Assembly: GCA_947626745.1 (NCBI GenBank)
Contig: CANQTF010000005.1
Span: 1 to 64,000, forward strand
Direction of reading: 5' to 3'
Length of the DNA: 64,000 bases
DNA from: an uncultured Lachnospiraceae bacterium
GTDB lineage: Bacteria > Bacillota > Clostridia > Lachnospirales > Lachnospiraceae
The translations under genes were made by a program, and so were the position numbers. A model generated the notes under the pieces. That model saw only the letters and a list, made by a program, of their open reading frames with translations. It had not been told where the DNA came from and did no database searches. Of the stretch, positions 1,931-18,498 are shown in pieces (position 1 is the stretch's first letter; each line of letters begins with the position of its first letter).

Positions 1931-2683
1931 ATGCCCGCAGACATCATTTTTTACATAATCATATTCCTCTTCGGGATCGTCATCGGCAGCTTTCTCAACG
2001 TCTGCATCTACCGTCTCCCGAACCGGGAAGACATTGTGAAGACCCGCTCCCACTGCATGACCTGCGGGCATACGCTGAAGTGGTACGATATGTTTCCGCT
2101 TTTCAGTTATCTTTTCCTGCGGGGGCGCTGCAGGTACTGCAAGGCGAAGCTGTCCGCCCAGTATCCTCTGATCGAGGCGCTGAACGGGATCTTATATGTA
2201 GCCATCGTGCTTTTGCACGGAGTCAATGCGGACTCTTTGCTCCTGTGTCTGCTCGCCTCGGCGCTTCTTGTGCTGAGTGTGATCGACTTTAGGACTTATG
2301 AGATACCGCTTGGCATCAATCTCTTCATACTGGCGCTGGGCGCGGTGAGGACCGCGCTGGATTACCGCAGCATAGCGGATCATCTGATCGGCCTGTTTGC
2401 CGTCAGTGTCGTCTTGGCGGTTCTCTACTACGCCACGAAGGGGCGTGCGATCGGCGGCGGCGACGTGAAGCTGATGGCGGCCTGTGGGCTGTTCCTCGGC
2501 TGGAAACTCGTCATTTTCGCATTTTTGGCGGGCTGCGTCCTGGGCGCGGTGATTCATGTCCTGCGCATGAAGCTGAGCGGGCAGGATCATGTGCTTGCGA
2601 TGGGGCCGTACCTGAGCGCGGGGGTGTTTATCGCGGCGCTGTGGGGCGAGCGGCTGATAAACTGGTATCTGGCACAATTTTAA
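1931..2683 (+). CDS. pilD: Prepilin peptidase (A24 family)
   Basis: 'GSFLNVCIYRLPNREDIVKTRSHCMTCGHTLKWYDMFPLFSYLFLRGRCRYC' and 'GGGDVKLMAACGLFLG', hallmarks of PilD/GspO. Confidence 0.95.
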   Translation: MPADIIFYIIIFLFGIVIGSFLNVCIYRLPNREDIVKTRSHCMTCGHTLKWYDMFPLFSYLFLRGRCRYCKAKLSAQYPLIEALNGILYVAIVLLHGVNADSLLLCLLASALLVLSVIDFRTYEIPLGINLFILALGAVRTALDYRSIADHLIGLFAVSVVLAVLYYATKGRAIGGGDVKLMAACGLFLGWKLVIFAFLAGCVLGAVIHVLRMKLSGQDHVLAMGPYLSAGVFIAALWGERLINWYLAQF

Positions 2684-2715
2684 ATACAAAAGGGGTTTGA
2701 AAGGAGAAACAAGCA

Positions 2716-4362
2716 ATGGCCGGTAAAGCGATCAGTATTGAGATCGGTTATTCGCTGACGAGAGTCTGCGAGGTCGATTACAAGGCGAAAACACACAGGG
2801 TATACAGGCGTTTTACGATACCGACGCCGGCGGGCGTCATCAACGACGGCGTGCTGACGGCGACGCCGGAGTATATCGAGCAGCTTCGGAGCGCGCTTGC
2901 AGACAGCAAGATGAAAGCGAAACAGGTGGTGTTCACGATCACGTCAGGCAGGATCAACAGCCGTGAGGTGATGATCCCGCTTGTCAAGGACAACCGTATC
3001 GCGGACGTTGTCGCGGCGAACGCGTCGGAGTATTTCCCGGTGGATCTGAGCCAGTATGAGCTTGCGCACAATATTCTGGGAACGGTGGGCGAGACGAAAG
3101 GACAGCAGCAGTATAAGCTGCTTGTCATGGCGGCGCCCAAAGCGCTTTTGAGCGGCTACTATGATCTGGCGAAGGCGCTGAAGCTGGAGCTGGCCGCGAT
3201 CGACTACGCCGGAAACAGCGTGTTCCAGGTTGCCAAAGACAAGGCGTCCCAAGGCACGAGCCTTGTTGTGAAGATCGACGAGCGCTCCACGCTGGTGTTG
3301 GCGATCCAGAACTCGGTCCTCACGTTTACGCGTAACGTGGCTTACGGTGTGGACGAGGCGATCCAGACGATCATGGACTCTACGCGCTGGTCAAAGACGG
3401 ACACGGTGGTAGATGCGATGGACGCGATGTCCCTGAATGACTGCACGGCTTTCCCGGAGATCGTGGAGGCGCTGACGCCGCTTGCGGGCGGTATTTCCCG
3501 CGTGATCGACTACTACGCTTCCCACAACGCGGATACCGAGATCGAGAAGGTGTACATAACGGGTATCGGCGCGGATATCAAGGGCATGGCTGATTTCCTG
3601 AACAAGGAGATCAGCTATCCGGTCGAGCCGCTGCGGCAGGTGGAGGGCTGGAAGCTGGAGCAGAGTTTCCGGACGCAGTTCTACGGCGGCTATGTGGCCT
3701 GTGTGGGCGCGGCGGCGGCGCCGCTCGGCTTTAAGAAGGACGAAAAGAAGAAAAAGGATTCCGGCGCGGGCGCTTCTTCCGGCAAGAAGGGCGGCTTCAA
3801 TCTCGCACCGGTGGCATATACGGTCTTGGGTATCGGCGTGGCGGCGGCGGTCGTCCTTGTGGTGCTGTCGGTGCTGAGGCTGATGTCGGCGCAGCAGCAG
3901 AATATGGAGCTGAAAGCGCAGAACAGCGAGCTGGAAGAGATCATTCCGATCTACAACGAATGGGTGACGACACAGAGCACTTATGCGCTGGTGCAGTCCA
4001 TGTATGACATGACGGAAAACAGGAACGAGGAGCTGGTGGAGTTTCTGGAAGAGCTGGAGACGAAGCTTCCGGCAGATGTCCACGTGGTCTCCTTTGCGAG
4101 CACGCTGGACGGTGTGGCAATCAATATGACCGTCAGCACGAAGAGCGAGGCGGCCGTGGCGATCGAACAGCTTCGTACGTTTGAAAGTCTTATCCCTGCC
4201 AGTGTGACCGTGAACTCGGTGGTCGAGGAGATCGACGAGGAGACGGGCGTCAGCTCGGTCAACTTCTCGGTTGCGGCGGTATATCAGGGCATGGATTATG
4301 TGCCGGAGGACGAGACGGCGGAAGACGCCGCAGCACAGACTGCGGACGGCGCGGCAGAGTAG
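2716..4362 (+). CDS. Type IV pilus assembly PilM-PilN fusion protein
   Basis: N-terminal PilM-like actin-fold ('ISIEIGYSLTRVCEV'), then a Lys-rich linker, TM helix and PilN-like coiled-coil/ferredoxin-like region. Confidence 0.8.
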   Translation: MAGKAISIEIGYSLTRVCEVDYKAKTHRVYRRFTIPTPAGVINDGVLTATPEYIEQLRSALADSKMKAKQVVFTITSGRINSREVMIPLVKDNRIADVVAANASEYFPVDLSQYELAHNILGTVGETKGQQQYKLLVMAAPKALLSGYYDLAKALKLELAAIDYAGNSVFQVAKDKASQGTSLVVKIDERSTLVLAIQNSVLTFTRNVAYGVDEAIQTIMDSTRWSKTDTVVDAMDAMSLNDCTAFPEIVEALTPLAGGISRVIDYYASHNADTEIEKVYITGIGADIKGMADFLNKEISYPVEPLRQVEGWKLEQSFRTQFYGGYVACVGAAAAPLGFKKDEKKKKDSGAGASSGKKGGFNLAPVAYTVLGIGVAAAVVLVVLSVLRLMSAQQQNMELKAQNSELEEIIPIYNEWVTTQSTYALVQSMYDMTENRNEELVEFLEELETKLPADVHVVSFASTLDGVAINMTVSTKSEAAVAIEQLRTFESLIPASVTVNSVVEEIDEETGVSSVNFSVAAVYQGMDYVPEDETAEDAAAQTADGAAE

Positions 4363-4374
4363 GAGGGGCGGACG

Positions 4375-5208
4375 ATGAAGGTTTCTAAGAGAGATATCTA
4401 TATTTTGCTTATATTTGTGGGGATACTGGCGGTGGTGGCGTCGTATTTTCTCGTGTACCAGCCGAACATAGAGTCCGCGGAGCTGATCGAGGCGGAGAAT
4501 CAGGAGCTGCAGGATCGGATCGCCGATCTGTCCGGCAAGATGGAGCAGAAGGATTCTTATGTGGAAGAGACGGCGGCCATGAACGAGGAGATGGATACGA
4601 TATTGCAGCAGTTCCCCATAGACGTGCGCGAGGAGGACGCGGTGCTGCTGGCCATCAATCAGGAGCTGATCTCGCCCATGGTGATCGACAGCATAGGGAT
4701 CACGGCCACGGAGCCGACCGTCCTGCCCGACATGGAGGAAGAGGACGTGGATCACACCTATGAGATCGACGAGATCGAGGAGTATGAGGCGCAGGAGGGC
4801 ATCGCGGACGAGGCCGAACAGGCGGCGGACGCGCAGACGGGCGGCGTGGCCAATGAGGATATGGCCTATGTGCTCATGCAGCGCAGCGTGACGATGAATT
4901 ATCTCGTCTCCTACGAGGGCCTGAAAAGAGGCATCAAAAATATCAGCGTACAGGACAACCGCATGAGCATCAACAACCTGACGGTGTCCTACGATGAGAG
5001 CACGGGACTGTTGACGGGCACGACAGTGGTCGATATGTACTGTATACCCGGTCAGGATAAAGAGTATGTACAGCCGAACTTCTCCTCCGTCCTGTTAGGC
5101 TCGGATAATATCTTCGGTTCTCTGGAGACATACGGGATCGGACAGCTTGACATCGGCGAGAGCGCGGCGGACGGTGAGGAAGCCGGAGACGGCGGAGCGG
5201 CGCAGTAG
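4375..5208 (+). CDS. PilO-like type IV pilus inner-membrane protein
   Basis: Position after PilMN, N-terminal TM followed by a coiled coil ('QELQDRIADLSGKMEQ'). Confidence 0.65.
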   Translation: MKVSKRDIYILLIFVGILAVVASYFLVYQPNIESAELIEAENQELQDRIADLSGKMEQKDSYVEETAAMNEEMDTILQQFPIDVREEDAVLLAINQELISPMVIDSIGITATEPTVLPDMEEEDVDHTYEIDEIEEYEAQEGIADEAEQAADAQTGGVANEDMAYVLMQRSVTMNYLVSYEGLKRGIKNISVQDNRMSINNLTVSYDESTGLLTGTTVVDMYCIPGQDKEYVQPNFSSVLLGSDNIFGSLETYGIGQLDIGESAADGEEAGDGGAAQ

Positions 5209-5302
5209 GCGTAAGCATGCGGGCAGCGCGGCTGCGGCAGATATCATAACAGATGTGATTCATATGATGAGATAAGGGCTGGGAAAACAGCGGGAAAGCG
5301 AT

Positions 5303-6919
5303 ATGAGAGCAGAGAAGATCGGTAGGGACAGACAACTGCATAGAGACGGCGGGAGAGCGGCGGACGCGGGCTTTTCGCTGGTGGAACTTTTGATCGCGGT
5401 GACCATACTGGCGATCATCGTGATCCCGCTGTTACACCTGTTCGTGACTTCCACGAGGATCAACGTGAAATCCAGACAGACCCTGCGTGCGACCACGGTG
5501 GCGCAGGACATCATGGAAGGGCTGAAGGCGTATACCTTGGAGGAAGTGCGGACGCAGTTCAATAAGACGGACGCTGCGGGCAGGATCGTGCTCCCCTCGG
5601 ATACGGCGTTCTATTATCCCGAGGACGGCTTCTATATCCTGAACAGCGATCTGATCCAGAGCGGTGTGCGGGAGATCACGGAGTTGGAGACATGGCTGGA
5701 TACGTCCACCGGCAAGCCCGTCGATCCCCACGGCGTGGATAACGAGACGTATTACTTCGGTATCGAGAACCTGAAGATGCAGGGCGGCGAGTACGATGCC
5801 CTGATCAAGCTGGATGCGTCCAAGTATGCGGAAGGCAAGGCCGGTGAAGCCGGAGACGGCACGGGGCACGACAATGTCTTTAACGGAAAATTCTACGCGG
5901 ACACCATGAGCGTGTCGGAGACCGGCAACGGCGGCGCGCAGACGGACAGCAGCTTCCACGAACCTGCGGGGCTGGCCGCGGACGTGCTGCGGGATATCCG
6001 ACAGCAGATAGAGACCGATTACGCGGCAGCCGGCGAGGCTCTGCCTACAGATTGGGAAGATGCATGGAAGGACATGGAGCTTAAGGACATCGTGACGAAA
6101 CGGGAGATCGTCGTGAAGCTGGGGGCTGCGCACACGGAGTCCGGCGCGCTCGCCAAGGACAAGGACGGCAGCGGCATCTGCCAGGCGCGGACGACTTTTA
6201 CCTATCAATGCAAATGTCCGGCGGCTCTTGCGGGCACGGTCATGAAAGACACGAACGGCGACGGGACGCCCGATCAGGCTATCCGTGATTGCACGTACAC
6301 AAGCCACGGCTTGGCGGGCGGCAGCGGCGAGGTGACTGACGGCAACACGCTGAGACAGTTTTCCAGCGGCAACTTTTATCTGTTCTACTATCCGATCTAT
6401 GCGTCGGGGGCGGTGGACGATATCAGCTTTGAGATCTCGGATATCCCGGAGCTCTTGGCGGAGGATGCGCCGCTGCTCCGCTCCGTCACGCTGGCGAAAC
6501 AGATACGCTCTACGGTCGATCCGGCGACGCACGTGATCGCCCCCGACATGACCGACGCGGAGCTGTACCATGCGGAGAGCGGCTATAAGGCGATCGTACA
6601 TATGCCAAATGACAGCAGTGTCAGGGACGGTCTGGTCTTTCGGACCAACATTGATACGAATATGGCAAAACAGGCCAAAAGAACGGATCCGGACGGAGAT
6701 GTCTACTGGGAAGAGATCTTGGGTATCACCATTCCGCCGTCGGTCAACAAGGTAGATTTGATCAGCGACGAGGTGAGCGATACCGTAACAAACGTTATTT
6801 ATGACATCGAGATCACGGTCTATGAGGCCGGAGCGGCGCAGTACTTTGGCGATCCCGATTTCGAGACGAACCATGCGGACGAGATACACAGGCTGGCGAC
6901 GATCACGAATCTGGATTGA
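5303..6919 (+). CDS. Prepilin-type N-terminal cleavage/methylation domain protein (PilV/GspI-like), large C-terminal domain
   Basis: 'AG^FSLVELLIAVTILAIIVIPLLHLF' type III signal; 538 aa. Confidence 0.85.
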   Translation: MRAEKIGRDRQLHRDGGRAADAGFSLVELLIAVTILAIIVIPLLHLFVTSTRINVKSRQTLRATTVAQDIMEGLKAYTLEEVRTQFNKTDAAGRIVLPSDTAFYYPEDGFYILNSDLIQSGVREITELETWLDTSTGKPVDPHGVDNETYYFGIENLKMQGGEYDALIKLDASKYAEGKAGEAGDGTGHDNVFNGKFYADTMSVSETGNGGAQTDSSFHEPAGLAADVLRDIRQQIETDYAAAGEALPTDWEDAWKDMELKDIVTKREIVVKLGAAHTESGALAKDKDGSGICQARTTFTYQCKCPAALAGTVMKDTNGDGTPDQAIRDCTYTSHGLAGGSGEVTDGNTLRQFSSGNFYLFYYPIYASGAVDDISFEISDIPELLAEDAPLLRSVTLAKQIRSTVDPATHVIAPDMTDAELYHAESGYKAIVHMPNDSSVRDGLVFRTNIDTNMAKQAKRTDPDGDVYWEEILGITIPPSVNKVDLISDEVSDTVTNVIYDIEITVYEAGAAQYFGDPDFETNHADEIHRLATITNLD

Positions 6920-6947
6920 GTTTTATGGATAAGTCGGGAGACGAAGC

Positions 6948-9665
6948 ATGAGAGAGGCAGACAAGGGCGGACGGACGGCCCGCCGCAACAAACTGAAGAG
7001 AGATAACAGGGGCTCGGCGATCGTCATCGTCATCATCGCGATGGCGATGATCGGTATCCTCGCCACCACGATCCTATGGGCGTCCTATCTGAATTACCGC
7101 ATCAAGATCAGCGACCTGAAGGTGAAGAACAGCTTCTACTCGGCGGAGACCGTGGTGGAGCAGATCATGGCGGGCGTGAAGAAGGATGTGGTCTCCGCTT
7201 CCGTCAACGAGGCGTATCAGGAAGTGGTGAGCAACTGGGACGCGCTCGGCACGGACGCAAACCGCGAGAGTTATTTCATCACGGCTTACACACAGGCCGT
7301 CGAGGAGAAGCTGGGCGTGGGTGATCCGGGCGTGCCGGCGGGACAGTACGATCCGGCGAAGCTGGCGCAGTATGTGGACGGCGTTTTTCTGGACGGCAGT
7401 AACGCCACGTCGGGCAACATCGCTTCGGAGGAGGACGGCGCGCCCTATGGCAGCGCGGCGGACTGGGTGTCTGCATGGAAGGGTCAGACTGACGCGAAGA
7501 AGGCCCCGCTCTTCCGATCCTTTGAGGATAACCGCGCATCGGATCCCCAATCGGGTACAATGACGCTTAGGAATGTCCGTGTGCAGTTTTACGACAGCGA
7601 CGGTCTGCTGTCCGTTATCGAGACGGATATCGCGATCGATGTGCCGAAGCTGCGCTTCACACAGGCGGGTACGATCGACAGGCTCTATCAGTATGTGCTG
7701 GTGGGCGACGACGGCATCGTGACGGAAGACAACACCAAGGTAACGATCGACGGCAGTATCTACGGCGGCGCCTATGAGACGGGCGATGCCGCGATCGACG
7801 AGGAGAATGACGGTATCCGCATCGGCAAGGGCAGCACGGTGACGGTGCAGAACGCCAACTATGTCATATCCGGCGGCGACATCATCGTGGGCACGGCGGA
7901 GAATTTTGTGAACCTGATCCATCAGGACGCGGACTTTGTCGTGAAAGATATGATCGCCGACGGCGTGGGCTTCCGCACCAACGTGTATACGCAGGGGCTG
8001 GCGGTGAACGGCAGCCATTTGAGCATAGCGGGCAAAGTGTTCGCGGCCAACGACCTGATCCTGTCCGGCAGCGGCAGCAACGTGACGCTGGAGGGACAGT
8101 ATTTCGGGTATGGCGGCGAGACGGGCAGCCGCGTGACGGCGAAGAACGAGGACGGCACGGACAAGACGGACGCCGAGGGCAGGACTGTCTATGCCAATCC
8201 GGCGCAGGTCAGCAGCGCCATTGTCATTAACGGCAAAGATTCCGCCGTGGATCTGACGGGACTCACTGTCCTGCAGCTCGCGGGACGCGCCTATGTGAGT
8301 CTGGGCGACGACGACAGCGCGGATGGTCTGCCCCATGTGCTGATGGGCGAGTCGATCTCCGTCAAGAGCAACCAGATCGCTTATCTGGTGCCGCCGGAGT
8401 GTATCGGCACGCTGGACGGCAAGACAGTCATCGGGCAGAACCCCATGTCTTTCAGCACATGGAGCAATATGGCGGCGAGCCTTGCGGACTATCTGGAGGA
8501 AGGACGGGATTTCCGCATCGTGAACGCGGGCATGTCGGCCTCCAAGCTGGGCGGCAGCAACCTGAACGCCTTCGGCATCGGCGACATCACCGCGGCGGAT
8601 TTTGAGGGCGTCGATCCGGCGAATCTGGCGGAGGTCAGCAGGACGCTCAATGCGAAGGCGGCGGCGAAGGGCGTTCGTTTCCTCTATCTGCCGGAAAAAC
8701 AGCAGGTGTACCTGTATCTCGTGATGGACGCGGAGAACGCGGAGCAGTATTTTGCGGCTTACTATAATGTGAACGGCAACAAGTCGAGTCTTGACAGCTA
8801 TTTCAATACCTATGCCTCCGGCGGTATCCGGTTAAAAGAGAATGTGCAGGGCTACACGGTGGTCGGCAACAGCATGGTCTCCCTGACGGATGCCGGGGAC
8901 GGCAACAGCATAAGGACGAACGCCGACGGCGACAAGCTGGTGCGGCTGCTCTCCAGCGTGGAGCCTGAGAAAGAGGAGGAAGAAGGCGGGGACGGGGCAG
9001 AACAGCCCAAGGATCCCGACGCCTATGAGGAAGTGTCCGACAACCTCACGGAGACGGAGAACGTAAAGGATTCTCTGGAAGATCTGGGTCAGGACAGCGA
9101 GACCGTCTATCGGAATCTGAACACCAGTCTGACGGAGGAGGAGGACGGCACGGCGCTCGCCGCCACCGTATTTGAGAATCTGGTACAGGTAGATACGCCG
9201 GCGGGCGCGGCTTCCGGCAACGTGGGTCTGAAAGACTATCTGGCGGAGGAGGGTGTGGACGAGGCCACCTTCGTGACGGACGACGCCCTGAAGCTGAAGG
9301 CCGTGCTGAAGGACGGCGATTATACGGTGGGTGACCAGGCGGGTGACAGCACTCTGCGCCTTGTGATCGCCACGGGCGACGTGACGGTGAAGGAGGATTT
9401 TCAGGGGCTGATCTTGGCAGGCGGCACGATCACCGTGGAGAACAACGCGACGTGTACGAAGAACGGCGAAGATGTGTACAAGGTCTTACAGGCGGGCAGA
9501 GATCCCGGCGAAGACGCGGCGGATACCAACGTGCCCGCCAATATCCTCTGTAACGGCTCGGGCATGGTGCTGAGCGGTTACGAGGGCGCGGAGGCCGATG
9601 CGCTCGGCAATCTGGCGATAGATTACTCGGAGATAGTAAGGTATGAGAATTGGATCAAGAAGTAA
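6948..9665 (+). CDS. PilX/GspK-like pilin-type protein with beta-solenoid-like body
   Basis: 'RG^SAIVIVIIAMAMIGILATTILWASYLNYRIKISDLKVKNSFYSAETVVEQI' N-terminus; repetitive Gly/Val/Asp-rich body; 905 aa. Confidence 0.7.
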   Translation: MREADKGGRTARRNKLKRDNRGSAIVIVIIAMAMIGILATTILWASYLNYRIKISDLKVKNSFYSAETVVEQIMAGVKKDVVSASVNEAYQEVVSNWDALGTDANRESYFITAYTQAVEEKLGVGDPGVPAGQYDPAKLAQYVDGVFLDGSNATSGNIASEEDGAPYGSAADWVSAWKGQTDAKKAPLFRSFEDNRASDPQSGTMTLRNVRVQFYDSDGLLSVIETDIAIDVPKLRFTQAGTIDRLYQYVLVGDDGIVTEDNTKVTIDGSIYGGAYETGDAAIDEENDGIRIGKGSTVTVQNANYVISGGDIIVGTAENFVNLIHQDADFVVKDMIADGVGFRTNVYTQGLAVNGSHLSIAGKVFAANDLILSGSGSNVTLEGQYFGYGGETGSRVTAKNEDGTDKTDAEGRTVYANPAQVSSAIVINGKDSAVDLTGLTVLQLAGRAYVSLGDDDSADGLPHVLMGESISVKSNQIAYLVPPECIGTLDGKTVIGQNPMSFSTWSNMAASLADYLEEGRDFRIVNAGMSASKLGGSNLNAFGIGDITAADFEGVDPANLAEVSRTLNAKAAAKGVRFLYLPEKQQVYLYLVMDAENAEQYFAAYYNVNGNKSSLDSYFNTYASGGIRLKENVQGYTVVGNSMVSLTDAGDGNSIRTNADGDKLVRLLSSVEPEKEEEEGGDGAEQPKDPDAYEEVSDNLTETENVKDSLEDLGQDSETVYRNLNTSLTEEEDGTALAATVFENLVQVDTPAGAASGNVGLKDYLAEEGVDEATFVTDDALKLKAVLKDGDYTVGDQAGDSTLRLVIATGDVTVKEDFQGLILAGGTITVENNATCTKNGEDVYKVLQAGRDPGEDAADTNVPANILCNGSGMVLSGYEGAEADALGNLAIDYSEIVRYENWIKK

Positions 9666-10212
9666 ACTGACAAACAACAACAGAGGCTTTTCCCTCGTGG
9701 AGCTGGTCATCGTGATCGCGATCATCGCCGTGGTCGGTCTCGGCGCGACCTTGTCCATCATTCTGATCTTCAGCGCCAACGCCAAGACCTGTGCCAACGA
9801 TATCTTGGGCGCGATCGCCGAGTGCAAGATCGAGACCATGAGCAAGGGGCAGGGCAACGTCAAGCTGCTGCTCTACCGCGACGGCGCGGGCGGCACGGTC
9901 TACAGCGAGCTGCAGATCAGGGATAATGCAAGCGCCGCGTGGGAGACGAAGGGCGGCGAGCGGGAGAAGATCGGCGCGAGCAAGTGTACCGTTACGAGCG
10001 GCGGCGCGGAGCTGCCGACCGACCAAAGCGGCGCGTGGGTGATCTGCTACAACCGCAGCACGGGCGCATTCGTGGAGGCGGGCGACGGCGCTGCGGGCGA
10101 GGCGACCACACAGTCCCTGTTGGATCAGGGCATAGAGGTACAGGGCGGCAGCAAGCATTACCGCATCAAACTGGAAAGGCTGACCGGCAAGACGACGAAG
10201 ACACTGGAATAG
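9643..10212 (+). CDS. Type IV prepilin-like protein (GspH-like)
   Basis: 'NNRG^FSLVELVIVIAIIAVVGLGATLSIILIFSANAKTCAND'; start overlaps upstream CDS by 23 nt. Confidence 0.85.
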   Translation: MRIGSRSKLTNNNRGFSLVELVIVIAIIAVVGLGATLSIILIFSANAKTCANDILGAIAECKIETMSKGQGNVKLLLYRDGAGGTVYSELQIRDNASAAWETKGGEREKIGASKCTVTSGGAELPTDQSGAWVICYNRSTGAFVEAGDGAAGEATTQSLLDQGIEVQGGSKHYRIKLERLTGKTTKTLE

Positions 10213-10287
10213 CTTCGGCACGGACGGGCTGACGCGGGGCGGACGCAGGACCGGAAAGGACTGCGGCAGTAAGAAGAAAGGATCCTG

Positions 10288-12972
10288 ATGATGAAAAGAG
10301 ACCAGAAAGGCTTTACGATAGTGGAATTGATCATAGCCGTGGCGATCCTCGCGATCGTGGTGCTCGCGGTGGGCGGCTTCATGGTGGTGGGCTCCAGAAG
10401 CTACACCAACGCGAATACCGATATCATGCTGCAGCAGGACGCACAGCTTGCCCTGAACCAGATATCCGACGTCATCATCGACACCACCGACAGCATCAGC
10501 TACAGCTTGGACGGCGTGAGCGTGGTGAAGGATGCCTATTACGATGGCGAGGCGACGAACAAGACGCTGGTCGTGGTGAACCGCGGCAACGAAGAGAGCA
10601 ATAACAACAACAAGAACTACTGGTTTCGCTGGGTCAAGGATTCCGCAGCGCCGGAGACGGAGACGGGCGTGATCTACTTCAATGAAGTAGATGTTACGAT
10701 AGACCCCTCCAAGAGCGAGGCGGAGCAGATCGCGGCGATACAGACGCAGATACAGGACGATCTGGACGCGCATTTCTCATCGGGTGTGGCAGAGCCGGAT
10801 ACGCCCGTGCTGGCGGAGCATGTGCAGAAGTTTTCCATTGATATCTCGCAGTTTGAGGAGAACCGCGTGGTCATGATCGCCATGACCTTCGAGAACGGCG
10901 GCAGACAGTACGACACCTCCAATAACGTGACGGTCCGCAACCGGATCGCGCTGAATACGATCGATGTCGATCCCATGAAGCTGGCGGACACTTTCGTGAT
11001 CGACGACCCCGGCAGCATCATCATCGAGCCCGGCGAGTCTTACACGATCCCGATGCCGGCGGTGACCAGTCCCGCCGAGGATCAGGCGCTCACATGGAAG
11101 AGCGTGCCCGACATCACGCCGGAGGGCACGGTACAGATAGGGCTGACCGATACGCGGGAGTCCTTCAACGTCAGGGTCGAGCGTCTGAACGAGCAGTATG
11201 CGGGACAGAACGACCGCGTGGCGAAGACCGTGAAGGTCAGGATCAAGCGGGCCACGGCGGTCAACATCACCTGCGCGCAGACCACCATTGAAGCGGGACA
11301 GCCGGTGGAGTTGACCGCATCGGTCAAAGGCAATGCGCTGGGCGAAAATTGTGTCAACGACGGGGTAGGCACCCACGGGACCGACGACATAAATAAGGAC
11401 AAGGACGTGACAAACTGGCGCATCGTTTCGGGCGCGGAGTTCGTGGAGGGCGGCATCGACGGCAGCAGCAACGAGCACGGCACGGAGGCGTCCCTGACGA
11501 TCAAATCCACGGCGGCGGAAGGCTCGGAGATCATCATCGAGGCGGATTCGGCTCTGTCCGTCCGCAAGCCTTACGATACCGTCACGGGCCGCTTCGTCAT
11601 CAGGGTGGACAAAGGCATCAGCGGCGATTATCCGCTGCAGGGCAACTTCAAGCTGGGCACCTGGGACGATCCGGGTCCGCTCGACTATATGCGCTCTCAT
11701 TTGGAGACGAATTTTGACCACTATATCTATTGTGTGCGCGTCAGAGAGAAGACTGCGACGACCGCGGCAAACGATCTGGTGGTGTTATACGAGACGACGG
11801 GAGCAAACGAGAGATTCTTCCCGGATCTTCTGGGCCTGACCTGGGACCGCGAATACAGGATCACGTTTCAGGTGCTCGACCCCGTCTCCAAGGAGACCAG
11901 AGAAAAGAAGCAAAGGGGCGAAGTATGGGGGCTGTATGCGGACAGTAATGAAGATATCGTCAATGAGTATCTGGCGCATATCGATCCCGTGACGGGCAAG
12001 TATGTGGGCGACAAGTATCCGGCAGACGATCTGTACAGCGGTCTGCTGAGTCCTCCTGCGGCGTCTTTCCGGTATAACGACATCACTTATCCGAATAACG
12101 ACAAGGATTACAGCGAGAGTTATCATTACCACTTTGGCAACGCCAATGAGACCGTAATGGGAAGGCCGGTCTTGGGCGAGTCGGCGAACATCAGGTACAA
12201 TTCGATCGAAAATCAGTTGACCTTCTCCGTATACAAGGGCGAAGGCAGCGATCCCTCGTCTTGGGAGACGATCTATGCCTATGAGGAGAAGGACGGCCAT
12301 TTGGGCTACACGGGGTCGAATCGCTACGGTTCGCTGTCCGTCAACCCGCAGGGCAGCGAGCTTTTGAAGAAGGAGGACAATAACGACCTGACGAAGACCC
12401 TCGGCACATACCACATCGTGCCCGGCTTCTACTATGCCAACAATCTGAACCTCAACCACCTGAATTATATCTATCCGGTGACCGGCGGCGGCCAGCTGGA
12501 TACCAGCAAGATGGGGCTGGACGGGAACGGCGGCGACTACTCGCTGCACTATTACCCGCAGACGGCGGCGGCCATAACGCTCAAGATAGAAATGGGAAAT
12601 ATGAAGCTGTCCGTGGCAGACAGCGATCTGAACGGCGGCGACGTCTATCTCAATCTCCCCGCGCCTAAGAAGGGGTATGACGACTTCTGGTTCGAGTTGG
12701 AGAAAGAGGAGGAGCAGGTCAAGGAAGGGCAGCGGCTGGAGGTCTGGAAGGACGGCAAGAAGTACAAGGAATTGAGTCAGGTCAAGGCTTCGTGCAAATA
12801 TGATCCTTCGGACGGCTCCTATACGGTGCATCTGTGGAATACGGAGTGGAAACCGAACGCGGCGAACGTATGGGAGGAGTATTTGGTCGATCTGGGCGAA
12901 TACAAGTGGCGGCCGGGCGACGATACGTGGACCTGCAAGACGGCGGGCACAGGCAGCAAGAAGATAAACTAG
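10288..12972 (+). CDS. Type IV prepilin-like protein (GspJ-like) with Ig-like domains, 894 aa
   Basis: 'KG^FTIVELIIAVAILAIVVLAVGGFMVV' signal; 'VNITCAQTTIEAGQPVELTASV' Ig-like segment. Confidence 0.85.
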   Translation: MMKRDQKGFTIVELIIAVAILAIVVLAVGGFMVVGSRSYTNANTDIMLQQDAQLALNQISDVIIDTTDSISYSLDGVSVVKDAYYDGEATNKTLVVVNRGNEESNNNNKNYWFRWVKDSAAPETETGVIYFNEVDVTIDPSKSEAEQIAAIQTQIQDDLDAHFSSGVAEPDTPVLAEHVQKFSIDISQFEENRVVMIAMTFENGGRQYDTSNNVTVRNRIALNTIDVDPMKLADTFVIDDPGSIIIEPGESYTIPMPAVTSPAEDQALTWKSVPDITPEGTVQIGLTDTRESFNVRVERLNEQYAGQNDRVAKTVKVRIKRATAVNITCAQTTIEAGQPVELTASVKGNALGENCVNDGVGTHGTDDINKDKDVTNWRIVSGAEFVEGGIDGSSNEHGTEASLTIKSTAAEGSEIIIEADSALSVRKPYDTVTGRFVIRVDKGISGDYPLQGNFKLGTWDDPGPLDYMRSHLETNFDHYIYCVRVREKTATTAANDLVVLYETTGANERFFPDLLGLTWDREYRITFQVLDPVSKETREKKQRGEVWGLYADSNEDIVNEYLAHIDPVTGKYVGDKYPADDLYSGLLSPPAASFRYNDITYPNNDKDYSESYHYHFGNANETVMGRPVLGESANIRYNSIENQLTFSVYKGEGSDPSSWETIYAYEEKDGHLGYTGSNRYGSLSVNPQGSELLKKEDNNDLTKTLGTYHIVPGFYYANNLNLNHLNYIYPVTGGGQLDTSKMGLDGNGGDYSLHYYPQTAAAITLKIEMGNMKLSVADSDLNGGDVYLNLPAPKKGYDDFWFELEKEEEQVKEGQRLEVWKDGKKYKELSQVKASCKYDPSDGSYTVHLWNTEWKPNAANVWEEYLVDLGEYKWRPGDDTWTCKTAGTGSKKIN

Positions 12973-13023
12973 CGTGACGGCAAGACAACGATAACCTTTC
13001 AGCAGTATAATGGGGCGATAAGT

Positions 13024-16000
13024 ATGGAACACAATGAGATCATGGAAACAGGGAAACTCCACAGCGAGGGCGGGAGCGGAGACGGCAGGAAGAAGCTTCT
13101 GCTGATCGCCGCGCTGACGTCACTGCTCTTGGCCGTGGCCGGTGCGATCTACGGCGCTTTCCGTCTGGGAAAGAAGCGGGGCGCGCAGGAGGCGGCAAAG
13201 CAGCGCACAGCGAAGCGGCGTAAGGCGGGGCGTGTCTCCGGCAGGAACAGACATGCGGCGGCCGGAAAGAGCGGGGTGCATGAGAGCGGGAGGCCGGAGG
13301 AACGGTCCGCGGCGCAGCCTGTCTATGTGGTGCGCCCTCTGCAGCCGAAGAAGAAGGAGAGCCGGGCGAAACGTTTCCGGCGGCATCTGTGTGCGGCGGC
13401 CGCAGTGATCCTTGTGATCTCCATGGTGGGCTCGAGTACGCTGCCCTATGGGGAGACGCCCACCGTTCTGGCGCGGGAGTCCTTCTCCGGCATCGGCAGG
13501 ATCGTGGCGGAGCACGAGTCCGAGCCTTATACGATATTGGATATCACGGCGGCGAACGCAGCCGATTCCTCTTCCCACACGTTCAATCTGGGCTCGATGG
13601 GCTATCTGGTGAACGGACAGTCCGCGCTGCAGACGGAGCTGGCGAAGATATTCAGCGACGACCTGACCTCCACGGGCGGCGTCGGCGGTACGGGAACGGC
13701 GGCGACGAAAACCTATGCAACGTATGATAAAAGACAGGAATTATTTAAAAATCTGACAAATTCCTCAGACCTCGTGACATATCAGGAGGCTTACGGCGGC
13801 GTGAGCGGCATGTCCACGAGCGGCTATACGCAGATCTATGCCGGGGATACGGCGGGCGCTGCGACGGGCGGTACCGGCACCGGCACTTCTACGGCGGTTA
13901 CGGGACAGAGCTTCTATGCAAGGATAGTGGAGAATACAAGCAAGACAGGCAATTACAACAAAGCGGAAGGATATGCGGGAATCGGCGGGCGTTTTGCCCT
14001 GCCGACCTATGGCTACGACGCCGAGAACGGAACGCTGCGCATTACCTTTAAGCGGGCCGGCGTCGTGCCAGAGGTGACAAACGGTTATGTGGTGCGCGTG
14101 CGCGGCGCGATGGCCGAGAACGGACAGCGCACCGAGTTTGCCACGGATACGACGGGCGTCTATCTCTGCGGCGAGGACGGCACATACAGCTATGTGGGTA
14201 CGGTGGCGCAGCTCATCGGCAGGACCTACACGAGAGTCGAGGACGAGCAGGAGCAGGAGCAGCAGCCCCAGCAGAATACGGTGACGCAGTCCCCCCAGAC
14301 GCCGGCCGAGCCGACGCCGGAGGGCGACGGCAATACGGAGCAGGACGGTGACGGGAACGGCGGCGGTGAAGGCGATGAAAGCGGCGACGGCAGCGAGGGC
14401 GAGACCACGCCCGCGCCGAGCGAGCCGGCGACAGACCCCAACCCCGCGCCGCCTGAGCCGACGCCAGATCCCAACTCTGCGCCGCCTGAGCCGGCATCGG
14501 CGCCTGGCGGGAACAGTGAAGACAACGGAAGCAACTCCACAGGGGAAGGCGAGCCGCTGATCTCCCGCGCGCTTTCGATGCCGGGCGGCTGGTATCTGCT
14601 GGCCGGGCTGACACCCGACGGCGGCGAAGGGCAGCCGGGCACAACGCCGCCGGAGCAGAGCGCAGATCCCGGTGACGGAGACGGCGAGCCGGATACGACG
14701 CCCACAACGCCGCCGGAGCAGAACACGGATCCCGGTGACGGAGACGGCGGGCAGGGTACGACGCCCACAGCGCCGCCGGAGCAGAGCGCAGATCCCGGTG
14801 ACGGAGACGGCGGGCAGGGTACGACGCCCACAACGCCGCCGGAGCAGAGCACGGATCCCGGCGACGGCGAAACACAGGATTCCGACGGTGGCGGCAGCTT
14901 CCACTATGTTGCGTCAGGCCCGGAGGACAGTGAGATAGACTGGTCCGTGTATGAGGATCTGGCAGTATGTTATTTCGAGCCCGCCACGGGGGAAGAACCG
15001 GCAGGCACGATCCTGTATGAAGTGGACAGCGTGGAGGAGATCGAGTCCGGCAGCGGGCTTCCCAGGCCCTTAGATGCCTATACGCGGCCCACAACAGGCG
15101 GCGCGATCATGCCGATCGGCGGCGGAACAGGGCTGCCGGGAACGGCACAGAACGGCATGAGCACCTACGGCACGGCGCCGATCGGCGGTCCATGGAGCCC
15201 TTACGGCACTTCTCCCAGTACGACGCCGGCTGGGTATATCTACACGCCGGGAACGGGCGATTATGATCTGGTGTATGTCTGCGGCGGGGACGTTGTGCCC
15301 GCGCCGTCGGATACGACGCTGGTGCTGGTTCAGGTGCAGGGCGCGCCTGTCTATGTGCGCTGCACCACCGGCGATGTGCTGAAGGACTCTGTATTCAGCT
15401 CCCTGTCCGGCGGCGACAATGAGAGCAGCGGGTTCAGCATTCAGGTCGTCAGCAAGCGGGCGGACGAAGTGACGGTTTCCGACGTAGCGGATGCGGATCT
15501 GATCTTTCTGGAGGACGGCAAGAACAGCCCGTTATCGACCACAGGCACAGCAGGGGGCAGCACGCTGACGGCGGCCTACATCGGCAGCGGCAGCACCGCC
15601 GGCGGTGGCGGCACTGTGGGCAGCTCGGGAGCGGATATGGCGCCCGATGTGATGCGGCGTATCCTGCTGGACGCGGCGGAAGATTTGAAGCCCGTGATCG
15701 TGGAGCACGATGTGGCCACAGACGAAGATCACTATAAGGATTCCAATTACCAGTATCTGGCGCGGGCGTTCCTGAAAGACGATCTGGCGGGCTTCTGCGC
15801 GGCGATGGACGAGGGAAGCAATTTCGCCGATAATGTCAAAATGAATGTAAGTTCCGGCAGTTATCCGGATAAAACAGACAATAGCTATCATTATGTAAAC
15901 CGAAATGTATATATCGTAGGCTCCGGCACGACGCTTGTCAGCACAGGCTTTGCTACGAAGTTTGACGGCACGAATGCAAAGGCGGGCTTCTCCGAGGTGC

Positions 16001-18498
16001 TGGATGCCATCAGCGCGGAGAACACCACTCTCTCCGAGGAGAATCGGATCTCGGCGGAGGTCAGCCCGGCGCGCGCGGTGCAGTATATCATCAACTATGC
16101 GGTGGGCATCGTCGGTGATTTCGGCGATCTCCGCATTCTGGAGTTACAGCCCTCGGCCAACCGGCGCTCCGATCTGTGGCAGGAGGGCGACGATACGAAG
16201 CTGGTCTGGAAGCGGGATTCGGTGAAGACGGCGAAGCAGATCCTGTTCAGCAGGGAAGCCTTCCGCGCTGACATCGACACGAAGTCCGTGGTGGAATTTA
16301 ACGGCGAGTGGGAGGATATCAACGGCGTCTATGACATCGTGTTCATCGGTCTGGACGGACAGCGCCTGAACCGGAACGGGGACGGCGAGACGCGCTACAA
16401 CAATGAAGATCTGAACGGCAAGGTCTACCATACCGGCGATTCGTCCGGTGCGGGAAATTATGATGCGAACGACATCACGGGGCAGAAGATGGAAGACCTG
16501 CTGAACTATATGAAGGCCGGATATCCCGTGCTGGTGGAGGACGACTGCTTTGAGGACGGCTCGGCCAAGCATGCGGACGGCGGCGATATCAACACGACTT
16601 ATATACAGGAGGATTCGGTCATGTACCGTTTCCTGAAGGCGGCGGTCGAGGATGACCAGTATGAGAACTGTATCTTCACGGTGTCCGACGTGCTGTCCAA
16701 TTCCATGTTCATGACCAGAGTGCGCCTGTCGAAGCCGCGTCTGGAATTGGTGGACGCGGAGGGGAATGAGGCGGCCGTCGTACAGACGCTGTCGCGCGGC
16801 GAGGACGATGCGTATCACGGACAGCTCTACTATCGTGTGAAGAATAACAGGGGCGAGGATTATTCCGGCGACGCGGTGGTGCGCGTCTACGCGGACTACA
16901 ACCACGACGGCAGCTTCGTGCCCGCCGAGGAAGTGACCGAATACCTGAACGCGGACAATATGCTGGACGTGAAGATAGACGGCATGGGGCCGGGCATCCT
17001 GCCCTGGAAGCTGGAGGTGTCGGATTCCGGCAACGGGTACAGGCGAAGCTCCGTTCTGGGATATTTCCAGCTCGACAGCGAGTACACCGACGATCTTAAG
17101 GTATTGCAGATCACGGAGAAGAAGGGCGATCCGCTGTATGACCTGCAGCAGATCTACAGCAAGAAGAAGGATTCCGTGCTGGCGCATTATCTGAAGGGCG
17201 CGGAGCAGATCATGAACGTGAAGTGGCAGTTCGATTCCCTGACGCCGGCGCAGCTGGCGGAGAAGCTGGCGGAGAACGCCAACTATCTGAGCCAGTGGGA
17301 TGTGGTGGTGCTGACGTTGGACGGCATGGCGGCGAATGACGCAGTGACGGAGGCGATCGGGCGCTATACGGGCGAGGGCAGGAGTCTGCTCGTGTGCGGG
17401 CAGGAGCCCGACAGCCAGAGCCAGAGAGCGGGCTTAAGCGGCGCGCTGCTGGGGCAGACGGACAACAGGACCTATGTGGACATCGGGGCTGGCGGCGCGG
17501 ACGGCTATAAGCGTTACGACGGCCTGAAAGCGGATATGTATCTGGGGCAGACGCTGCTCAAAGCCGAGCCGGTCAATACTGGCTCCATATCTCTATACCC
17601 CTACACGATAGACGGCAGATTTACCTTCGGGGAGAGAGGACTGCTCAGGGCGGCGCCTTATCTGCTGGACTTCGAGGACAATCTGGCCAGCGAGGAGAAC
17701 GTCTCCTATGTGACGGCCTGGTATACCTTCGGCAGCGATGACCCGACCGGTTCCGCTTACGGGATCTCGCCCAAGGACGCGCGCAACAACTATTACTGCT
17801 ACAGCAAGGGCAATGTGGTCTATCTGGCGCAGTCCCAGTATCCGTATACCTGTGACGAGACGACGGGGCCGGCGCCGGACGGCGAGGGCGTGGACGAGAG
17901 CCGTTTCTTCGTGAACGCGCTGACGGCGGCTTACGATGCCGGGCTTCACAACGCGCATATCCATATCGTGGGCGGTTTCTCGGATGATGCGGCGGACATC
18001 AACAGCATCTCCGTGCCTTTCGACGAGACGTGGACCACGGATACCGTTTCGTTTGACGAGGAGACGGGCGGCATCGTAGGCAATACCGTGGACGTGTACT
18101 TTAAGTTCCGCGACAACAACTTTGCGCCGCAGAAGGTCTCCGAGCTGGGCTTCTACTACGAAGATCCGGACGGCGGAGAGGTGGATATCGGAAATGACAA
18201 GGTGTCGGCGACGCCGTTTACCTCGGAGGTGTGGACCGTCACGGACAATAAGCTGGTGAAGCTGCAGCCGGGAGAAGAGCTGAAGCCCGGCAAGATATAC
18301 CGCATCAAAGCGCCGGTCAAGACCCTGCAGAAGACGTCGCCGCTCACCAGAGGGGACGCTGCGCAGCAGGAACAGGCGAACAAGGCGGATATCTATATCG
18401 TGCTGCAGACCTCCTTCACGCGGGGCGGCAGGTCCTATCGGATCACCAGCTCCGACGCGGTATCCCTGAACAGGACCAGATTGTTCCTGTTAGAGTAG
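13024..18498 (+). CDS. Giant membrane/surface protein (possibly DUF5057-type) of pilus-like locus, 1824 aa
   Basis: Single long ORF, two hydrophobic N-terminal segments, Pro/Asp/Gly-rich repeat region, long extracellular-type body. Confidence 0.75.
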   Translation: MEHNEIMETGKLHSEGGSGDGRKKLLLIAALTSLLLAVAGAIYGAFRLGKKRGAQEAAKQRTAKRRKAGRVSGRNRHAAAGKSGVHESGRPEERSAAQPVYVVRPLQPKKKESRAKRFRRHLCAAAAVILVISMVGSSTLPYGETPTVLARESFSGIGRIVAEHESEPYTILDITAANAADSSSHTFNLGSMGYLVNGQSALQTELAKIFSDDLTSTGGVGGTGTAATKTYATYDKRQELFKNLTNSSDLVTYQEAYGGVSGMSTSGYTQIYAGDTAGAATGGTGTGTSTAVTGQSFYARIVENTSKTGNYNKAEGYAGIGGRFALPTYGYDAENGTLRITFKRAGVVPEVTNGYVVRVRGAMAENGQRTEFATDTTGVYLCGEDGTYSYVGTVAQLIGRTYTRVEDEQEQEQQPQQNTVTQSPQTPAEPTPEGDGNTEQDGDGNGGGEGDESGDGSEGETTPAPSEPATDPNPAPPEPTPDPNSAPPEPASAPGGNSEDNGSNSTGEGEPLISRALSMPGGWYLLAGLTPDGGEGQPGTTPPEQSADPGDGDGEPDTTPTTPPEQNTDPGDGDGGQGTTPTAPPEQSADPGDGDGGQGTTPTTPPEQSTDPGDGETQDSDGGGSFHYVASGPEDSEIDWSVYEDLAVCYFEPATGEEPAGTILYEVDSVEEIESGSGLPRPLDAYTRPTTGGAIMPIGGGTGLPGTAQNGMSTYGTAPIGGPWSPYGTSPSTTPAGYIYTPGTGDYDLVYVCGGDVVPAPSDTTLVLVQVQGAPVYVRCTTGDVLKDSVFSSLSGGDNESSGFSIQVVSKRADEVTVSDVADADLIFLEDGKNSPLSTTGTAGGSTLTAAYIGSGSTAGGGGTVGSSGADMAPDVMRRILLDAAEDLKPVIVEHDVATDEDHYKDSNYQYLARAFLKDDLAGFCAAMDEGSNFADNVKMNVSSGSYPDKTDNSYHYVNRNVYIVGSGTTLVSTGFATKFDGTNAKAGFSEVLDAISAENTTLSEENRISAEVSPARAVQYIINYAVGIVGDFGDLRILELQPSANRRSDLWQEGDDTKLVWKRDSVKTAKQILFSREAFRADIDTKSVVEFNGEWEDINGVYDIVFIGLDGQRLNRNGDGETRYNNEDLNGKVYHTGDSSGAGNYDANDITGQKMEDLLNYMKAGYPVLVEDDCFEDGSAKHADGGDINTTYIQEDSVMYRFLKAAVEDDQYENCIFTVSDVLSNSMFMTRVRLSKPRLELVDAEGNEAAVVQTLSRGEDDAYHGQLYYRVKNNRGEDYSGDAVVRVYADYNHDGSFVPAEEVTEYLNADNMLDVKIDGMGPGILPWKLEVSDSGNGYRRSSVLGYFQLDSEYTDDLKVLQITEKKGDPLYDLQQIYSKKKDSVLAHYLKGAEQIMNVKWQFDSLTPAQLAEKLAENANYLSQWDVVVLTLDGMAANDAVTEAIGRYTGEGRSLLVCGQEPDSQSQRAGLSGALLGQTDNRTYVDIGAGGADGYKRYDGLKADMYLGQTLLKAEPVNTGSISLYPYTIDGRFTFGERGLLRAAPYLLDFEDNLASEENVSYVTAWYTFGSDDPTGSAYGISPKDARNNYYCYSKGNVVYLAQSQYPYTCDETTGPAPDGEGVDESRFFVNALTAAYDAGLHNAHIHIVGGFSDDAADINSISVPFDETWTTDTVSFDEETGGIVGNTVDVYFKFRDNNFAPQKVSELGFYYEDPDGGEVDIGNDKVSATPFTSEVWTVTDNKLVKLQPGEELKPGKIYRIKAPVKTLQKTSPLTRGDAAQQEQANKADIYIVLQTSFTRGGRSYRITSSDAVSLNRTRLFLLE
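14641..14868 (+). repeat. 63-bp in-frame tandem repeat (~3.6 copies)
   Basis: acaacgccgccggagcagagcgcagatcccggtgacggagacgg... repeats at 14641, 14704, 14767 and 14830 (partial). Confidence 0.95.

Follow-up and report, generated by a model that had tools for sequence, protein, structure and literature searches.

Does a type IV pilus (T4P) locus that shows no motor genes build a structure of its own, or is it the visible part of a larger system? The question is raised by a window of 64,000 nucleotides from an uncultured Lachnospiraceae bacterium. In this window, a prepilin peptidase, PilMN and PilO are followed by four pilin-like proteins of 538, 905, 189 and 894 aa and by a protein of 1824 aa. 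A sequence-only reading had listed these genes, all of which are present, and had called the locus motor-less, either a dedicated tip that uses a motor encoded elsewhere or a static display structure. It had also reported that PilB, PilT, PilC and a major pilin were absent, and none of them was found within the window. We consider it likely that the window holds the 3' portion of a complete, motor-driven type IVa cluster of monoderm gut Lachnospiraceae, and that its minor pilins and the 1824-aa protein form an adhesive tip, which may take a PilY1-like role. The large protein is named here after its Pfam domain, DUF5057.

Assembly context and the missing motor genes

The source assembly represents an 83.5%-complete Lachnospiraceae genome of 2.69 Mb in 49 contigs. 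The window is contig C5 from its first base, and base 1 is thus a contig end. A 110-nt direct repeat lies at this break (copies at 1-110 and 244-353, span 1-353), followed by an Rpn-family (Transposase_31-like) gene at 718-1677 and then by pilD; all genes described here for the window are on the forward strand. The profile match of the Rpn gene (0.00089) is just below the cut-off. Its counterpart at the same position in the congener G010 is 77.5% identical, and an Rpn gene of another type is found in G018. The gene is outside the pilus system and sits between the missing pilA and pilD. The promoter and upstream terminator previously ascribed to the locus itself exist as pattern matches (1846-1874 and 1760-1789, respectively), but the terminator-like site follows the Rpn-family gene.

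The motor genes are found on other contigs. Contig C15 carries an intact pilB (Pfam 1.2e-140) and an intact pilT encoding 351 aa, with 91-95% identity to the PilT of cluster relatives. Both proteins are ordinary T4P ATPases. PilC, a protein of 404 aa (1.6e-35), is encoded on contig C22. Since the window begins at a contig end and these genes lie on C22 and C15, the motor-less look is an assembly effect and not a property of the locus. The genes comM and dprA lie between pilT and pilB on C15 (L006:5537-11789) and adjoin the pilus cluster in several relatives, which may point to a link with DNA uptake. The same genome also holds two Tad-type (T4cP) loci (G000:C17:22500-26500 and G000:C3:190400-195000), in each of which a TadA-type ATPase and a TadZ-like protein are encoded along with platform proteins.

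Synteny with congeners indicates how the contigs fit together. On C22, pilC lies about 1.5 kb from the contig end and is followed by an Rpn-family gene and then by the break. The genes argS, queH and carB adjoin pilC there, as they do upstream of pilC in G010 (names read from translations). In nine congeners, a single contiguous run on one strand has the order PilC-PilA-PilD-PilMN-[PilO]-PilV-PilX-FimT-PilW-DUF5057 protein, where the brackets mark that the PilO reading frame is displaced by an overlapping frame in three of them. In all nine, a class III pilin of 151-178 aa is encoded between pilC and pilD. The two nearest congeners, G010 and G018, whose PilC is 93% identical to that of the window genome, read pilC-Rpn-pilA-Rpn-pilD-pilMN-pilO-pilV-pilX-fimT-pilW-DUF5057 protein-topA (names read from translations). 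Rpn genes thus occur at both broken ends, on C22 and C5, as they do on each side of pilA in these two genomes. PilA was not matched anywhere in the assembly, neither by profile search nor with a congener's protein, and therefore most likely lies in the gap between C22 and C5. We infer from this synteny that the two contigs would join across the gap, pilA included.

An ordinary complete T4P locus immediately upstream, which would speak against a stand-alone tip, is thus what the congeners show, the join itself lying in the assembly gap. The suggestion that the motor is encoded elsewhere applies to PilB and PilT but not to PilC, whose gene is directly upstream by congener synteny. A search of the rest of the genome, as proposed earlier, recovered PilB, PilT and PilC but no major pilin.

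The major pilin is variable among the congeners. Its first 38 residues are 79-100% identical (L050-L068, between pilC and pilD), while the tails fall into classes unrelated to PilC or PilD similarity, with alleles that cross the phylogeny. For instance, the tails of G010 and G018 share 26% identity and their PilC 91%, whereas G010 and G017 share 60% in the tail and 80% in PilC. Because Rpn genes flank pilA on both sides in G010 and G018, this pattern suggests an exchange of pilA alleles.

Assembly genes and minor pilins

The prepilin peptidase PilD (1931-2683, 250 aa) matches A24_N and Peptidase_A24 above the cut-off (Pfam 5e-36 and 6e-20). It is followed by a fused pilM-pilN gene (2716-4362, 548 aa) with a PilM_2 match of 3.6e-17 and a hydrophobic segment after the PilM part. 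Relatives have the same fused length. The PilM part is assigned from Pfam, PilN and PilO from position and weak similarity. The pilO-like gene (4375-5208, 277 aa) has 53-86% identity to its relatives. As for the fusion, pilM-pilN is one gene of 534-581 aa in the Lachnospiraceae loci that can be read whole, and two separate genes in the order-level relative G085 and in some other Clostridia loci.

Four minor pilins come next. They are PilV/GspI-type (5303-6919, 538 aa), PilX/GspK-type (6948-9665, 905 aa), FimT/GspH-type (9643-10212, 189 aa) and PilW/GspJ-type (10288-12972, 894 aa). Class III prepilin signals, with N_methyl matches above the cut-off, are present in the 538-, 189- and 894-aa proteins. 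The start of the 905-aa protein, NRG|SAIVI, resembles that of PilX/GspK and lacks Glu5. By profile, the subunit labels given in the sequence-only reading are weak (PilV 1.5e-7, GspK 0.2); they gain good support from the order of the genes and from the lack of Glu5 in PilX. Indeed, Glu is found at mature residue 5 in none of the 58 readable PilX members, while PilV, FimT and PilW have it. A cap subunit lacking Glu5 is located at the tip (PMC10191384). The earlier identification of the four proteins as a minor-pilin tip set of the H-I-J-K type with large extra modules holds.

The extra modules of PilX and PilW matched no Pfam family. PilX keeps its length across the family, at about 697-917 aa with a single exception of 1303 aa. 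PilX_N is matched in only 2 of 49 PilX relatives, and the other Pfam matches are at chance level. PilW ranges from 166 to 1380 aa among relatives. Short PilW proteins (166-203 aa) stop at the RN with which the pilin module terminates (aa 217-218 in the window), and the giant PilW is therefore read as such a module to which a C-terminal part has been grafted. In the window protein, a 218-aa pilin module (10288-10941), where the short relatives stop, is followed by a fast-evolving string of tandem Ig-like beta-sandwiches of 676 aa (aa 219-894, 10942-12972). Identity to G010 and G018 drops from 85-91% at the start of PilW to 25-45% in the extension. The structural model (pLDDT 81.0, pTM 0.48) combines a pilin part, made of the long helix and a sheet, with a string of beta-sandwiches, and its fold matches are multi-Ig proteins with low TM-scores. 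Such low-TM multi-Ig proteins make up most of the fold matches of both the PilW and the DUF5057 models, which were used for the term Ig-like alone. The grafting of an extra module, proposed to sit at the tip, on a small pilin module is the modular-pilin strategy (PMC8179133). As this strategy is already known, the large pilins of the window belong with the known modular pilins.

The DUF5057 protein

The last gene of the cassette (13024-18498) encodes the 1824-aa protein. DUF5057 (PF16480) is matched at aa 1149-1413 (5.5e-15, 56.1 bits against a gathering cut-off of 27.9). A signal-peptide-like segment near aa 118-150 is followed by a variable region at aa ~200-750 and by a conserved region at aa 745-1824. 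Most relatives have signal-like N-termini, as read by eye, and the window's group has an additional hydrophobic segment ahead of the signal-like one. Identity to G010 and G018 is about 32-59% in the N-terminal half and 60-83% in most of the C-terminal half. Pro/Thr/Asp-rich linker repeats with 33-nt and 63-nt units (14410-14867) are a likely site of length variation.

The C-terminal 1080 aa were modelled with confidence (pLDDT 84.9, pTM 0.81). The model contains ThuA/glutamine-amidotransferase-like Rossmann units and Ig-like units. The ThuA-like match to 4e5v is modest, with a probability of 1.00 and a TM-score of 0.44 to the target. No beta-propeller is among the Foldseek matches listed for this part, and no relatives of solved structure were found by sequence. 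A literature search yielded no paper naming DUF5057. The protein also contains an EF-hand-like loop, DYNHDGSFVPAE (aa 1291-1302, 16894-16929), which may bind calcium. The D, N, D and G of its DxNxDG stretch (aa 1291-1296) are among 12 positions invariant in 64 sequences. The strict 12-residue EF loop pattern is present in 60 of 75 members, and the strict 9-residue PilY1 motif somewhere in 33 of 75. The loop thus has a 12-residue geometry in most members, in contrast to the 9-residue consensus of PilY1.

Conservation and linkage of the tip cassette

In a scan of named genomes, 78 DUF5057 loci were recovered, nearly all labelled Lachnospiraceae or Clostridiales, for instance in Catonella morbi ATCC 51271, Anaerosporobacter faecicola, Anaerobium acetethylicum and Blautia schinkii. 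The cassette was counted in the 64 loci whose sequence extends for more than 5.5 kb ahead of the DUF5057 gene. In every one of them, pilW comes before this gene, which closes the cassette. A complete PilX reading frame lies ahead of it in 60, the locus edge cutting it in the other four. The 1824-aa protein therefore belongs with the minor pilins, as previously stated, and the neighbourhood survey across Lachnospiraceae that had been proposed led to T4P minor-pilin loci in every case with readable flanks. In G085, the gene closes a T4P cluster or lies close to its end. The same holds for 6 of 6 genomes beyond this genus with an above-cut-off match in the class sample of Clostridia, two of which are of the same family. 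A sub-cut-off match in G152, not in a pilus locus, was treated as chance. Because the cassette linkage recurs in the 64 loci, in G085 and in these six genomes, DUF5057 is, judged from sequence, a marker of T4P loci.

Relative to G010 and G018, identity amounts to 84-93% in PilC, PilD, PilM and PilO and to 46-73% in the tip proteins. What survives in the window is the conserved tip cassette.

Proposed function and comparison with known systems

Display at the pilus tip, as proposed in the sequence-only reading, is the best reading of the cassette. PilD would process the pilins, and PilMN-PilO together with PilC, PilB and PilT would form the inner-membrane assembly and retraction machine. PilV, PilX, FimT and PilW would make up the complex that initiates the pilus and is finally located at its tip, probably capped by PilX, the subunit without Glu5. 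PilX and PilW would bear large extra modules there, those of PilW serving as Ig-like stalk domains. The DUF5057 protein, presumably secreted by a Sec-type route, may dock on this complex via its conserved C-terminal half. Its variable N-terminal half would then face outward and make the retractable pilus an adhesive organ.

This part would resemble that of PilY1 in diderms, which docks on FimU-PilV-PilW-PilX, primes assembly and remains at the tip (PMC7541494). A type I signal and a calcium motif are described for PilY1, as is an N-terminal domain that varies (PMC8833165), and a 2023 review presents PilC/PilY1, which is not a pilin, as the tip effector of diderm T4aP (PMC10191384). Like the DUF5057 protein, PilY1/PilC (Neisseria; PF05567) is encoded with four minor pilins. 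Neither is a pilin, and PilY1 is secreted, as the DUF5057 protein probably is. In both, the N-terminal half varies and the C-terminal half is conserved, and the EF-hand-like loop of the DUF5057 protein recalls the calcium motif of PilY1 (PMC7541494, PMC8833165). Gene position and conservation polarity match, signal and loop match roughly, and homology does not. The DUF5057 protein has Rossmann and Ig-like domains, and a direct Pfam scan gave no PF05567 match. With no propeller among the listed matches either, it was ruled out as a PilY1 homologue. PF05567 was not matched in the relatives' genomes either, but no control genome matched, which makes this genome-wide absence weaker than the direct scan. 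The DUF5057 protein may thus be a non-homologous counterpart that plays the part of PilY1 in monoderms.

Modular pilins such as PilB/PilC of Streptococcus sanguinis, CofB, ComZ and GspK likewise combine a pilin module with an extra module (PMC8179133). Here, in contrast, two giant modular pilins and a non-pilin partner are found in one cassette, and the PilW extension is Ig-like and, by sequence, not a vWA or lectin module. The monoderm T4aP of Clostridia and S. sanguinis share PilB, PilT, PilC, PilD, PilM, PilN, PilO and a major pilin, without a secretin (PMC6916266). Unlike the PilABC set of S. sanguinis, the cluster described here keeps the full H-I-J-K minor set and adds the DUF5057 protein.

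Alternative explanations

The absence of PilB, PilT, PilC and PilA from the window would fit a display structure that is static and works without a motor, or a tip locus that has no pilus of its own. This explanation is barely credible, as the window starts at a contig end, pilC and pilA lie directly upstream in nine congeners, and the genome encodes PilB, PilT and PilC, by which it is already contradicted. It is also very improbable that the cluster builds, in place of a pilus, a pseudopilus of the competence (ComG) type or one resembling that of type II secretion. The vicinity of comM and dprA to pilT and pilB, and to the cluster in several relatives, would fit it, as would the I-H-J-K set, which is common to T2SS. 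Nevertheless, the system includes the retraction ATPase PilT, the platform protein PilC and PilM-PilN-PilO, and monoderms are not expected to have a secretin.

The cluster could also be a complete T4P in which the DUF5057 protein serves as a substrate for secretion through or by the machinery, like CofJ, TcpF or T2SS effectors, or as an enzyme, and not as a fixed tip subunit. Its ThuA/glutamine-amidotransferase-like Rossmann units and Sec-type signal (signal-like, by eye) are consistent with such a role, and T4bP have known tip effectors that are not pilins (PMC10191384). We regard this as unlikely, given that the gene is always last in the minor-pilin cassette, that length and C-terminal half are conserved, and that the protein is restricted to T4P loci where flanks are readable; a non-systematic inspection identified no catalytic residues. 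Moreover, the extra hydrophobic segment in the window version means that the protein could be anchored and not displayed. For the more specific form of the preferred reading, we see about an even chance. Here, the retractable pilus would carry in DUF5057 a separate, non-homologous class of T4P tip effector, which docks via its Rossmann/Ig-like half on the H-I-J-K complex, needs calcium and, with the giant modular PilX and PilW, forms an unusually large tip.

Significance

If DUF5057 proteins are tip effectors in gut Clostridia, a role can be assigned to a domain that so far has none. The PilW series runs from a pilin of 166 aa without any extension to a protein of 1380 aa, and would document in natural variants how cargo is grafted onto one tip subunit. 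If the proposed tip is correct, the attachment of monoderm commensals by T4P becomes testable.
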